Source: Pleurocapsa sp. PCC 7327 (GTDB lineage: Bacteria > Cyanobacteriota > Cyanobacteriia > Cyanobacteriales > Microcystaceae). Taken from it: DNA of 64,000 bases. The notes under the pieces were generated by a model. That model saw only the letters and a list, made by a program, of their open reading frames with translations. It searched no databases and was not told the DNA's origin. Position 1 is the stretch's first letter, and the number at the start of each line of letters is the position of its first letter. Both the position numbers and the translations under genes were made by a program. Location of the stretch: the NCBI RefSeq assembly GCF_000317025.1, contig NC_019689.1, positions 1,067,501-1,131,500 of the forward strand. Direction: 5' to 3'. Positions 30,157 to 54,572 of this stretch are shown piece after piece.

Positions 30157-30828
30157 TTATTGGCGCACGTCGGCGGACTTGGTTCCTGACGTCAGCAGGC
30201 GTTTCCGTCCTTCCATATCGCTTTGCTCCGAGGAGTTAGATAGATAGATTTTTGGCGATCGCTCGTATAGAATTTGAGCGACGTAGACGGTGGCGATCGT
30301 TTGAACGATTCCCATGACGATAAACAAAGAATTAAACGAAAAGGAACTGACAATTAGTCCGCCTAACAATACGCCAATTCCTGTTACGATCTCCGATTGT
30401 CCGTCGGCAAGCGCCCAAACGCATCCAGAAGATTTTTTCTTACGTCCATGATTTTCATAACGTTCGTACTTTGCATATAAAGCATTCCAGGTTGGAGTAG
30501 ACAAAGCCGATGCAACTCCTACACCAATTTGTACGACTAATAATTCACTTTGAGAGGAGACCAATAGGTAAGCAAAAGTAAAAATTGCATTTAAGGCATA
30601 GCCTATAGTCATCAGTTTTTCTTTACTAATAACTTTGTCGGCAATCTTACCAACAAAAACAGTAAAGATACCGGAGGCAATGAGATAAGCTGCCCAAACC
30701 CCAGAGATCTCAAGAATATCGCCGCCAACTTTTTTAGCAAATACGGCAAAAAGTGGGGCAAACATTCCTTCCCCCAGATACCAAATATTGCTACTGTAGA
30801 GCAAAATTTTGAGTTGTCTGTTTAACAT
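30157..30828 (-). CDS. half-size MFS transporter (six-helix)
   Basis: A 223-residue protein with about six membrane helices, matching the N-terminal half of a major facilitator: YLGEGMFAPLFAVFAKKVGG near 17-36, VWAAYLIASGIFTVFVGKIADK (the MFS loop 2-3 motif) and LLVVQIGVGVASALSTPTW. Full MFS proteins have about 400 residues and 12 helices. A hydrophilic tail (about 190-223) ends it. It may work as a dimer or be a truncated gene. Its ATG overlaps the stop of the decayed SET copy (sequence ATGTTAA), so it once formed the last gene of the SET operon. The substrate is unknown. Confidence 0.75.
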   Translation of the reverse strand: MLNRQLKILLYSSNIWYLGEGMFAPLFAVFAKKVGGDILEISGVWAAYLIASGIFTVFVGKIADKVISKEKLMTIGYALNAIFTFAYLLVSSQSELLVVQIGVGVASALSTPTWNALYAKYERYENHGRKKKSSGCVWALADGQSEIVTGIGVLLGGLIVSSFSFNSLFIVMGIVQTIATVYVAQILYERSPKIYLSNSSEQSDMEGRKRLLTSGTKSADVRQ

Positions 30829-31134
30829 GAAACTCTCTTCAACTCTTTAAAACGCTTGGAACGGTTGTAATAACAAGTTAATACCGAGTCTGTGGCGGCT
30901 TTTTCCTCTGCAATAGCATTAACTTTCGCCATCGCGCCAGCTATATTTTCGGATTTTTTCCTGGTGCAATGGATCGAGGGAATTTATATAAAATTCATTG
31001 AGTTTTCGCTCGAGTTCGTCTAAGACCCAAATAATCGTTCCTTTAGGGATAAATTGGGTGGCAAAAACACCATTACCTATTTTCTCACTGACAAAACCTA
31101 GTCGGGTATGAGGATGCATCATAAAGTTAATCAA
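30822..31134 (-). pseudogene. decayed SET-domain gene, copy 4 (internal deletion)
   Basis: The first about 68 residues (MMHPHTRLGFVSEKIGNGVF from residue 5) match the three intact neighbours up to YSWRD. The catalytic core with NHS and GEELTDDY is then missing. The sequence resumes out of frame in the C-terminal helix region: in the shifted frame it reads AKVNAIAEEKAATDSVLTCYYNRSKRFKELKR and stops at 30822. The junction lies at about 30923-30930, where GAAAG/GACAAAG-like microhomology could explain the deletion. The stop overlaps the start of the MFS gene. The N-terminal piece alone (stop at 30919) would be a non-catalytic peptide of 71 residues. Confidence 0.8.
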
Positions 31135-31313
31135 AGCTAAATAATTTATCCGATTGATTGAGATAAGGCATCAAGATATTACGATGATTTCATGGATCGT
31201 ACTTGACTTTTGTCAGACCAAAATTCTCTGTTTTCGTTGCTAGATTTAGCCTAGTAACGAAGGTTAGAGATAGCGCTAAAAACATAACTTTAACTACCTT
31301 AAAGAAGGCGGTT

Positions 31314-31928
31314 CTAATTTAAACTGAGGTTAAGCTTTTTATATCTATCGTAGTAAGTAACCAATACCGAATCTAAGGATTCTCTTCCCTCTGCAACAGC
31401 ATTAACTTTGTCAATATATTTTTTATCGATTAGATGCTTTAAAGGCTGTTCTACCTTATTAAAATAAGGCATGGCTTCTAGAACTAGCCGATCCCACTCT
31501 TGGTGATAGTGTAATAAATCGTCTGGCGTAACCTTAGTTCTCAAAACGCCCTCTTCTGGGGGAAAATCAAATGACTTATCTAGATTCAGACAGCCATAGT
31601 CATCTCTTAATTCTTCTCCAGGATGTATGTCCCTGACAGCAATTTCAAAATCATAGGCAGTGGCAATGCAATTTGCGTTAAAACTGTGATTGACAAAGCG
31701 ACCGATATCCCAACATAGTATGTACTTACCTTCACTATCGCGAAAGGTGTATTTTCGGACTTGTTTTTGTCGCAATGGATCGAGAGATTTTACATAAGCT
31801 TCGTCGAGTTTATAATCGAGATCGTCTAAGACCCAAACAATCGTTCCTTTAGGGATAAATTGAGTGGCAAATACGCCGTAGCCTATTTCTTCATTAACAA
31901 AACCCAAGCAGGTATGAGGGTGCATCAT
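31314..31928 (-). CDS. SET-domain protein methyltransferase, array copy 3
   Basis: A 204-residue protein. SET landmarks: GYGVFATQFIPKGTIVW at 16-32, RFVNHSFNANC at 77-87 and DIHPGEELRDDYGCLN at 100-115, where the usual T of ELTDDY is Arg. A helical domain of about 80 residues follows (FNKVEQPLKHLIDKKYIDKVNAVAEGRESLDS). SET enzymes transfer methyl from SAM to lysine side chains of proteins; the substrate here is unknown. There is no post-SET Cys cluster. It is one of four tandem paralogues; copy 2 ends 30 bases upstream. Confidence 0.88.
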   Translation of the reverse strand: MMHPHTCLGFVNEEIGYGVFATQFIPKGTIVWVLDDLDYKLDEAYVKSLDPLRQKQVRKYTFRDSEGKYILCWDIGRFVNHSFNANCIATAYDFEIAVRDIHPGEELRDDYGCLNLDKSFDFPPEEGVLRTKVTPDDLLHYHQEWDRLVLEAMPYFNKVEQPLKHLIDKKYIDKVNAVAEGRESLDSVLVTYYDRYKKLNLSLN

Positions 31929-31958
31929 AATTAGAGATTCTCAACATTAATAAGTTAG

Positions 31959-32609
31959 TCAGTTTGTAGCGCGCGAAAATTTTTTAGAGTTTTTCTGATA
32001 ACACTCAATGAGAGAATCCATTGGTTCTTTTCCTTCTGCTATGGCATTTAGCTTATCGAGATATTTTTGTTTTACTAAAGATTTTAGAGGTTGTTCTACC
32101 CGATTGAAATACCGAAATGCTTCTTCTGCCTGTCGCTCTAAATCTTGGTAACAATCAAAAATATCATCTGCCTTAACTTTTCCAATCGTACCATCTTTTG
32201 AAGAGTAATCAAATGAATAATTAACATCAAACCATCGATAGTCATCTGTTAGTTCCTCGCCCGGATAAATATCTTTTGAAGCTAGAGTAAATTCATAGGG
32301 AGTAGGAACGCAATTAGCCTCAGAACTGTGATTCATAAATTGACCGGCATCCCAACAGATGATATATCTATCTTGACTATCTATAAAAGCAGTATCTCGG
32401 AAAGAATAGGCTATTACTCGTTCTTTGAGAATTTCTTCTAGGGAGTCAATATAGGATTTCTCTAACTTAAGATCGAGATCGTCTAAAATCCAAGTAATCG
32501 TTCCCTTGGGAATCAATTGAGTGGCAAATAAGCCATAGCCTATTTCTTCGTTAACGAAACCTAATTGAGTATGAGGATGTATCATAATATTTTTCAGTCC
32601 ACTAATCAA
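31959..32609 (-). CDS. SET-domain protein methyltransferase, array copy 2
   Basis: A 216-residue paralogue. Alignment with its neighbours begins at Met9 (MIHPHTQLGFVNEEIGYGLF), so the true start may be 32585. FMNHSSEANC at about 91-100 and DIYPGEELTDDYR at about 113-125 carry the SAM-binding Asn-His and the catalytic Tyr. The C-terminal helices (VEQPLKSLVKQKYLDKLNAIAEGKEPMDS) are shared with copies 1 and 3. It is only 16 bases from copy 1, clearly one transcription unit. Copies 1 and 2 share a longer central loop (SFRDTAFIDSQDRY / GFRDTIYLDSKGKY) than copy 3. Confidence 0.88.
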   Translation of the reverse strand: MISGLKNIMIHPHTQLGFVNEEIGYGLFATQLIPKGTITWILDDLDLKLEKSYIDSLEEILKERVIAYSFRDTAFIDSQDRYIICWDAGQFMNHSSEANCVPTPYEFTLASKDIYPGEELTDDYRWFDVNYSFDYSSKDGTIGKVKADDIFDCYQDLERQAEEAFRYFNRVEQPLKSLVKQKYLDKLNAIAEGKEPMDSLIECYQKNSKKFSRATN

Positions 32610-32625
32610 GTCAATGTGAAATCTT

Positions 32626-33279
32626 TCAACTATTTCGAGTATTCGATCGAGTTGATAAAGTCTTAAAAATTTCTTTTCTAGAGTTTTCGTAATAACATCT
32701 TAGGAGTGAATCCATTGGTTCTTTTCCTTCTGCTATGGCTTCAATTTTATCTAAGTATTTCTTCTTTAATAGAGATCTTAAAGGTTGTTCTACTTTATTA
32801 ATACAACGCATTGCTTCTTCGGCTTGACTTTCTAAGATCTTGTAACAATCGAAAAGATCGTCAGCTTTAACTCGTCTGGCTGTACCGTCTTCTAATAGAT
32901 AATCAAATGCATGGTCGATATTATACCAGCGGTAGTCATCTGTTAATTCTTCTCCCGCATAGATATCTCGCGAAGCTATGGAAAATTCATAGGGAGTAGG
33001 AAGACAGGTTGGTTGAGAACTGTGGTTGACAAATTGACCGATATCCCAACAGAGTAGATATTTTCCTTTACTATCTAGATAAATAGTATCGCGAAAACCA
33101 TATATTCTGACTCGTTCTTGAAGTAATAGATCGAGGGAATTAATTTGTGCTTCGTCTAATTTAGGATCTAGTTCATCTAACACCCAAATGATAGTTCCTT
33201 TAGGAATAAAATTTGTGACAAATACACCATATCCTATGGTTTCGTTAACAAAACCCAGTCGTGTATGAGGATGCATCAT
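32626..33279 (-). CDS. SET-domain protein methyltransferase, array copy 1
   Basis: The first gene of the array, 217 residues. GYGVFVTNFIPKGTIIW at 16-32, FVNHSSQPTC at 83-92 and DIYAGEELTDDYRWYN at 105-120 are complete SET motifs; the helical C-terminal part ends in an Arg/Ser/Thr tail. No signal peptide is visible, so it acts in the cytoplasm. The array reads copies 1, 2, 3 and (decayed) 4, then the MFS half-transporter, all on this strand. Its 476-base upstream region carries repeats. The array looks AT-richer than the surrounding housekeeping genes by eye, which may indicate transfer. Confidence 0.88.
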   Translation of the reverse strand: MMHPHTRLGFVNETIGYGVFVTNFIPKGTIIWVLDELDPKLDEAQINSLDLLLQERVRIYGFRDTIYLDSKGKYLLCWDIGQFVNHSSQPTCLPTPYEFSIASRDIYAGEELTDDYRWYNIDHAFDYLLEDGTARRVKADDLFDCYKILESQAEEAMRCINKVEQPLRSLLKKKYLDKIEAIAEGKEPMDSLLRCYYENSRKEIFKTLSTRSNTRNS

Positions 33280-53709: not shown

Positions 53710-53804
53710 AGGACACTGTTGAAATCGCGCGCGTCGCTTGCCGCTTGCCGTTGATTGGAATTGGCATGGGCGATCGCCTTGGCTTGTCTTACCTTTTCTA
53801 TACG

Positions 53805-53830
53805 TCTACACAGTTGACGGATTGTGTAGA
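53805..53830. mobile_element. IS200/IS605-type end hairpin
   Basis: TCTACACA (53805-53812) and TGTGTAGA (53823-53830) form a perfect 8-base stem with a 10-base loop, 37 bases before the TnpB start. Subterminal hairpins of this kind are recognised by TnpA of IS200/IS605. No matching right end was seen. Confidence 0.6.
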
Positions 53831-53867
53831 AAACAATAAGATAGGGAAATTTCAGGGTCGAAACGTT

Positions 53868-54572
53868 ATGTTGACTTGGAATTATCAGTTCAAGCTAAAA
53901 CCAAATAAAAAGCAAGTTATAGAGATAGAAAATTACCTCGCCGCTTGTCGCAAAGCTTGGAATTATGCTTTAGCTGAGCGTAAAGATTGGAGCAATTCGC
54001 GCAAGAATAACATAGATAGATGTTCCTTAGAAAAAGAATACATGATTTCTGCTGATGCTCCTTATCCAAGTTATAAATCACGAGCAGCAGCTTTAGCAGA
54101 AGCCCGAAAAGTTTGTCCCGATTTAAAGGACATAAATGCTCAAGTTCTTCAACAAGTGTTACGTCAATTAGACCGAGCATTTGTTGAGATGAAGTCTTTA
54201 AATAAGGGATTTCCAAGGTTTAAGAATAAATCTCGAATGAAATCTTTTGTTTTCCCTCAATTTAAAACTAACCCGATTCTTGGTAGTTATATTAAACTAC
54301 CTAAGATTGGTTCAGCAAGAATGAGGTTATCAAGACCAATACCAGCTATGTTTATTCTTAAGCAAGCCAGAGTTATTAGAAAAGCTTCAGGATATTTCAT
54401 TAATCTGTGTTTTCAATCAGATGTTAAAGTTCTTGACTCGTCCCCTCATGGAAATTCATTAGGAATTGATATTGGACTGGATTATTTTGCTGCTACTTCT
54501 AACAATGAACTGATTAAACGTGATAGATTGAATAAATTCATGAAATACGCAACTGAGAAAAGATTATTGTAG
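53868..54572 (+). pseudogene. tnpB: truncated TnpB (IS605 OrfB), RNA-guided nuclease remnant
   Basis: It starts at MLTWNYQFKLKPNKKQ (53868), the usual TnpB N terminus, and shows the helical domain and the RuvC-I motif GIDIGLDYFAATSNN with the first catalytic Asp. It ends after about 234 residues, whereas TnpB has about 370-450: RuvC-II, the zinc-ribbon and RuvC-III are missing. No tnpA lies nearby, and the 3' region that would encode the reRNA/omegaRNA and the right end is lost. It cannot cut DNA. Confidence 0.85.

Follow-up and report, generated by a model that had tools for sequence, protein, structure and literature searches.

A young tandem array of SET-domain genes beside a half-size transporter gene in the cyanobacterium Pleurocapsa sp. 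PCC 7327

Introduction

SET-domain proteins (PF00856) are class V methyltransferases that depend on S-adenosylmethionine (SAM), and to our knowledge few targets are known for the bacterial members that act inside the cell. According to section 4 of one review (PMC3980110), a bacterial genome has one to four SET genes, with examples from Chlamydia, Legionella, Bacillus and others; 'cyanobact' is absent from the main text of this review. BurB, a small bacterial SET enzyme, methylates free methionine (PMC12542666). Here we describe a locus at positions 30157-33279 of a 64,000-nucleotide stretch of Pleurocapsa sp. PCC 7327 (NC_019689.1; the whole stretch is called the window below). The locus comprises three intact SET genes, the remnant of a fourth and a gene for a half-size protein of the major facilitator superfamily (MFS), all on the minus strand. 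The SET array is a young tandem duplication within one cyanobacterial genus and not a conserved SET-MFS system. A search of the openly licensed literature turned up no paper titles dealing with a cyanobacterial SET array or with a module of a SET protein and a kinase.

The window proteins resemble the PF00856 family in their scores, in their NHS and GEEL..DY motifs and in the SET fold of the model of the third copy. They differ from PF00856 generally in their subfamily start, MxHPHT, and in a C-terminal helical region that most of the structural matches do not cover. The post-SET cysteines, present in relatives from Bacteroidota, are missing from the window copies and from most cyanobacterial SET proteins. 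The window genes encode bacterial SET proteins as do the examples in PMC3980110, with the difference that the pathogen enzymes treated there act on host chromatin. They are also small, as is BurB, and the model of the third copy is close to BurB structures; unlike BurB, they have no S-methylmethionine pathway genes that we recognised nearby.

Results

The three intact copies are SET1 (32626..33279, 217 amino acids, 98% identical to the copy in Hydrococcus rivularis), SET2 (31959..32585, 208 amino acids) and SET3 (31314..31928, 204 amino acids, the nearest to the subfamily consensus). All three pass the Pfam SET cut-off of 22.4 bits (44.8, 46.6 and 48.9 bits, respectively), and the SET4 remnant (30822..31122) falls below it with 17.6 bits. 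Protein identity among the intact copies is about 52-65%, far beyond chance. The open reading frames (ORFs) and the Pfam scores agree with a preliminary description of this DNA, which reported three intact and one decayed SET paralogue on the same strand and the retention of NHS and GEEL(T/R)DDY. These motifs, which we take to be the catalytic motifs of the SET family with its active-site tyrosine, are found in SET1, SET2 and SET3. The spacing of 16-30 bases given in the same description holds for SET2 and SET3, which are 30 bases apart; SET1 and SET2 are separated by 40 bases and not 16, because the most likely start codon of SET2 is the ATG at 32585 and not an upstream TTG at 32609, from which the protein would have 216 amino acids. 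The ATG gives MIHPHT, the start that is conserved in the subfamily. The array is flanked upstream by a UDP-glucose dehydrogenase-like gene and downstream, on the opposite strand, by a coproporphyrinogen oxidase-like gene, both named from reading their translations. The genome (4.99 Mb, one contig) has no further SET match above the family cut-off outside the array.

The duplication is young and local, because the sampled SET-bearing cyanobacteria outside the genus have one copy of the subfamily. A profile of the three copies matched six of 58 relatives, the window genome included, and a 14-row profile found the subfamily in 26 of 388 genomes of the cyanobacterial class, 25 of them with one match and the window genome with four. 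When the whole Pfam SET family was searched, 69 of 376 genomes had a match at E 1e-5: a single match in 60, as expected from the earlier statement that bacterial SET proteins are usually encoded by single genes, and two or three matches in nine. Neighbouring copies occur in the window genome alone; the remaining eight have theirs on different contigs or more than 1 Mb apart (some of these genomes are drafts). The nearest named relative, Hydrococcus rivularis NIES-593, shares the SET array and the MFS gene in the same order. One congener (G003) has a single frameshifted SET gene in the same genomic place, changed at conserved motif positions and with no MFS gene at the locus, and in another (G001) no SET gene was detected at E 1e-10. 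A public record titled Candidatus Gracilibacteria SU_1_2 contains genes 89-95% identical to those of the window; it seems to belong in the window's genus, and its title looks wrong.

Single-copy SET genes have a recurrent neighbour. At 17 of the 26 non-Hydrococcus cyanobacterial loci, a histidine kinase gene is encoded just downstream of SET on the same strand (e.g. L070:7090-9993), and PRC-barrel and smc genes are found upstream at 15; all three are present at 11 loci and at least one side at 21, with some loci ending at contig ends. Pfam matches of the kinase to dCache and HATPase are above cut-off and the match to HisKA is just below. With the SET and kinase counts taken as referring to the same 388 class genomes, 22 genomes have both genes, four have SET only, one has the kinase only and 361 have neither (Fisher p 8e-31, a value inflated by shared ancestry). 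The SET-only genomes are the window genome, G050, G084 and G310, and the kinase of the kinase-only genome, G316, is fragmented and contains a stop. The two genes are adjacent in 17 of the 22 pairs and are both present, on different contigs, in the remaining five. The association also appears within one family (f41, 12 genomes), in which seven genomes have both genes, five have neither and none is mixed (p 0.0013), the five without (G090, G103, G116, G148 and G168) being presumed to be part of the 388-genome samples. In the window's genus (the window genome and G001-G003), only partial matches to the kinase are detected, at 34-37% identity. The window genome itself has no kinase match at E 1e-120 (the best is 36-37% identical over a part) and does not carry the pair of SET and dCache kinase.

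The smc and PRC-barrel genes were also considered as partners and were rejected. In the best 30 PRC loci, drawn from 126 genomes with PRC among 145, smc is upstream in 28 and SET is present in only four. Since smc and PRC-barrel pair up irrespective of SET, we retained the kinase link alone. SET, kinase, smc and PRC-barrel are the only gene clusters found in more than six of the 42 neighbourhood loci (ORFs of at least 60 amino acids), and the conserved lysine-rich small protein that the preliminary description suggested looking for nearby does not recur among them.

A tree of the copies, also suggested there, was built from 47 rows (Scytolyngbya L020, which repeats G072, was omitted). The eight Hydrococcus rows cluster together (85/82); within the cluster, SET1 and SET2 are sisters (100/100) and SET3 groups with the G003 gene and the copy 4 remnant (86/93, drawn open). 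Between the window and H. rivularis, the ratio of nonsynonymous to synonymous rates (dN/dS) is 0.265 for SET1, 0.138 for SET2, 0.197 for SET3 and 0.264 for the MFS gene. Fisher tests against equal rates, made with rounded site counts, give p 0.025, 9e-6, 0.001 and 2e-5, respectively. The three SET genes and the MFS gene are under purifying selection, which is weaker than in three flanking genes (CPO 0.09, UGD 0.020 and UXS 0.033). Relaxed selection on all copies, with dN/dS near 1, is not seen, as each intact copy is significantly below 1.

We then compared the copies at 97 positions conserved across 90% or more of 23 single-copy cyanobacterial SET genes; this reference set omits G003, whose gene is broken, and three divergent genes (G048, G084 and G310). 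SET1 departs from the conserved residue at 22 positions, SET2 at 31, SET3 at 10 and the G003 gene at 15; within the 23 single-copy genes, the leave-one-out counts range over 0-14. Eleven departures are identical in SET1 and SET2, including F83S, G112R, Y113W, W145L and D146E (SET3 numbering), and two of the 11 (I11V and A76G) also occur in SET3. Of the shared changes, G112R and Y113W fall immediately after the GEEL..DY motif. The altered residues suggest that SET1 and SET2 probably have a new specificity, acting on a different or additional substrate.

SET4 is broken in two different ways. The window copy retains the N-terminal third, followed by a deletion with a frameshift and by a C-terminal tail in another frame, and the H. 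rivularis copy has lost its N-terminal part and retains the middle, with an internal stop. As the lesions differ between the two species, their common ancestor probably carried an intact fourth SET gene. The overlap of the MFS start codon with the stop of copy 4 (ATGTTAA), pointed out earlier, is real and is present in both species; the stop is that of the out-of-frame C-terminal remnant. As SET4 is dead, no working SET gene is coupled to the MFS gene through the overlap.

The MFS gene (30157..30828) encodes a protein of 223 amino acids that matches PF07690 with 68.7 bits (cut-off 33.4) over profile positions 9-187 of 347. It corresponds to the N-terminal half of an MFS protein and has about six helices, unlike the MFS_1 transporters of PF07690 with their two halves and about twelve helices. 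Bacteria of the candidate phyla also have short MFS proteins with six helices, a possible lead to its origin. The protein is short in both the window and H. rivularis (94% identity), its tail diverges after about residue 192, and no second MFS half was found in the 200 bases downstream of the ORF. The nearest solved sequences are an antiseptic resistance protein and NorA, of which the N-terminal half matches; the structure model, made from two sequences, is poor (predicted local distance difference test score, pLDDT, 36.9). The other MFS matches in the 58 relatives (E 1e-7) are seven proteins with open frames of 415-449 amino acids and 22-27% identity over about 200 residues.

Regarding the linkage of the two families, the MFS gene lies beside SET genes in one other genome only, that of H. 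rivularis. No MFS match was detected in the congeners G001 and G003 at E 1e-7, in the remaining 290 of 291 sampled class genomes at E 1e-15, or at E 1e-6 in the eight genomes behind eight of 12 SET-relative loci (a search without positive control), and plasmids contain no close relative (E 1e-8). A conserved SET-MFS system, one of the candidates considered, is not supported by these samples and was rejected; the half-size MFS protein is probably a recent neighbour, its gene having most likely been acquired or shortened inside the genus. The preliminary description had proposed a diversified array working with a transporter and had raised the absence of the SET-MFS linkage from every other genome as a point against it. 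The linkage does exist in H. rivularis and was not found elsewhere in the samples. What stands of the proposal, in part, is the diversification, as the copies diverged under constraint (dN/dS 0.138-0.265, with the 11 departures common to SET1 and SET2); the functional system with a transporter does not, the usual neighbour of SET elsewhere being the histidine kinase.

The predicted structure of SET3 (pLDDT 81.7) has a SET fold, and its best matches are the SET domains of SETD8, ASH1L and MLL (for ASH1L, Z 9.3 and a root-mean-square deviation of 2.9 over 129 residues). BurB structures match at Z 8.6-8.8, within one Z unit of the best match, so the fold alone does not decide between a protein and a small-molecule substrate. 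A profile search at E 0.01 returned histone lysine methyltransferases only; with E up to 10, BurB was not named among the matches listed (60 of 128). We consider that the substrate is probably a protein lysine and possibly a small molecule.

Discussion

The explanation that we favour, with a probability of roughly 0.6, is that the array is a SET gene without its usual kinase that underwent a lineage-specific tandem expansion and then diverged, that the copies methylate protein lysine and that the MFS protein is a mere neighbour. The enzyme is a small SET-domain, SAM-dependent methyltransferase that other cyanobacteria mostly encode once and together with a dCache histidine kinase. That kinase is absent from the window's genus, apparently lost rather than never present; there the SET genes lie at a different place, between the UDP-glucose dehydrogenase-like and coproporphyrinogen oxidase-like genes, and were duplicated in tandem. 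SET3 would have kept most of the ancestral sequence features. SET1 and SET2 would descend from one changed duplicate, with alterations immediately past the catalytic tyrosine and in the C-terminal region. SET4 was lost to deletions that differ between the sister species. The intact SET proteins most likely each methylate a lysine on a cellular protein, with SAM bound in the usual SET cleft.

Several observations weigh against this explanation. In the tree, several supports are moderate, long branches meet and the deeper order is unsure; the grouping of the G003 gene with SET3 requires the loss of copies 1 and 2 in that genome, or attraction. SET1 has about 11 differences between the two species, which bounds its dN/dS weakly (p 0.025), and the dN/dS of the SET genes, above that of the three flanking genes (0.020-0.09), leaves room for partial relaxation. 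Divergence is not unique to the array, as the single-copy genes of G050, G066 and G072 depart at 13-14 of the conserved positions. The MFS gene is itself constrained (dN/dS 0.264, p 2e-5), and its product may work with the SET proteins in the two species.

The last point bears on the idea that the SET array and the half-size MFS protein form one functional unit, with copies that modify related substrates and a transporter that exports or senses a linked product. The same gene order and the same ATGTTAA overlap in two species are in its favour, as is the constraint on the MFS gene. However, the partner in the overlap is a dead gene in both species, the MFS protein lacks its C-terminal half, and no MFS gene was found in G001, in G003, which keeps a SET gene, or in the rest of the class sample, and we regard a single unit as very unlikely. 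Similarly improbable is the view that the whole array is decaying, i.e., that the tandem copies are functionless and on their way to loss, with copy 4 and the G003 gene further along. It would account for the two deaths of copy 4, for the frameshift and motif changes in G003 and for SET dN/dS values above those of the flanking genes, but three copies have kept intact frames and motifs in both species, each with dN/dS significantly below 1, and the G003 frameshift may be an assembly error because that genome is a draft.

A different kind of alternative is that the SET proteins are small-molecule methyltransferases like BurB, with copies that differ in their small substrate and an MFS protein that exports the product. 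BurB shows that a small bacterial SET enzyme can act on methionine (PMC12542666), its structures match SET3 nearly as well as the best protein methyltransferases do, and in Bacteroidota SET genes lie near genes for ATP-grasp, AstE/AspA-type hydrolase or 2OG-Fe(II) oxygenase proteins. We nevertheless find this alternative unlikely: the profile search at E 0.01 listed histone lysine methyltransferases only, BurB was not named among the matches listed with E up to 10, the cyanobacterial SET genes have no recurrent pathway genes next to them, and the MFS link is not conserved. A reading more tentative than the explanation favoured above is that SET and the dCache kinase make up a two-gene signalling module in cyanobacteria. 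SET would then methylate either the kinase itself or the target of the kinase, much as receptors are methylated in chemotaxis, but on lysine. The array would then be an enzyme freed from its kinase, with paralogues that have new targets; we hold this to be possible but rather unlikely.

Under the favoured explanation of tandem expansion and divergence, three paralogues, one near-ancestral and two changed, offer a compact system for asking what sets substrate choice. The near-constant co-occurrence, in the genomes sampled, of a single-copy SET gene with one sensor kinase also names a candidate partner, which makes the function of a bacterial SET protein testable in cyanobacteria.

Relatives outside the cyanobacteria and other observations

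Outside the cyanobacteria, SET relatives were found in Bacteroidota, in an Oligoflexus and in a metagenome-assembled genome (MAG) of Rhodothermaceae; a pair of them, on separate contigs, is present in one Bacteroidetes MAG. In two Bacteroidota loci (L023:6001-10918 and L024:6001-9350), SET is near a protein of 486-513 amino acids for which no Pfam family was found, a glutathione-synthetase-like ATP-grasp protein and an AstE/AspA-type hydrolase (neighbours assigned by Pfam in L023 and by similarity in L024). This neighbourhood is a possible peptide or metabolite modification cluster. In three Phaeodactylibacter-like loci (L025:5275-6621, L029:5353-6636 and L030:5353-6636), SET directly follows a 2OG-Fe(II) oxygenase gene, recognised in L030 by similarity only.

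Eight of 72,556 plasmid records, seven from Priestia and one from Niallia, encode SET relatives with 54-57% identity to SET3, and one Priestia plasmid has a relative at two places. Three of the loci are on Priestia megaterium plasmids (L036, L037 and L039; 55-57% identity to SET3); all have genes for YjcZ sporulation proteins nearby, and L037 also has a spore coat protein gene near SET. Viral contigs contain four weak relatives (28-35% identity). Finally, elsewhere in the window, an ORF at 53745-54572 resembles, by eye, an OrfB-type transposon protein.

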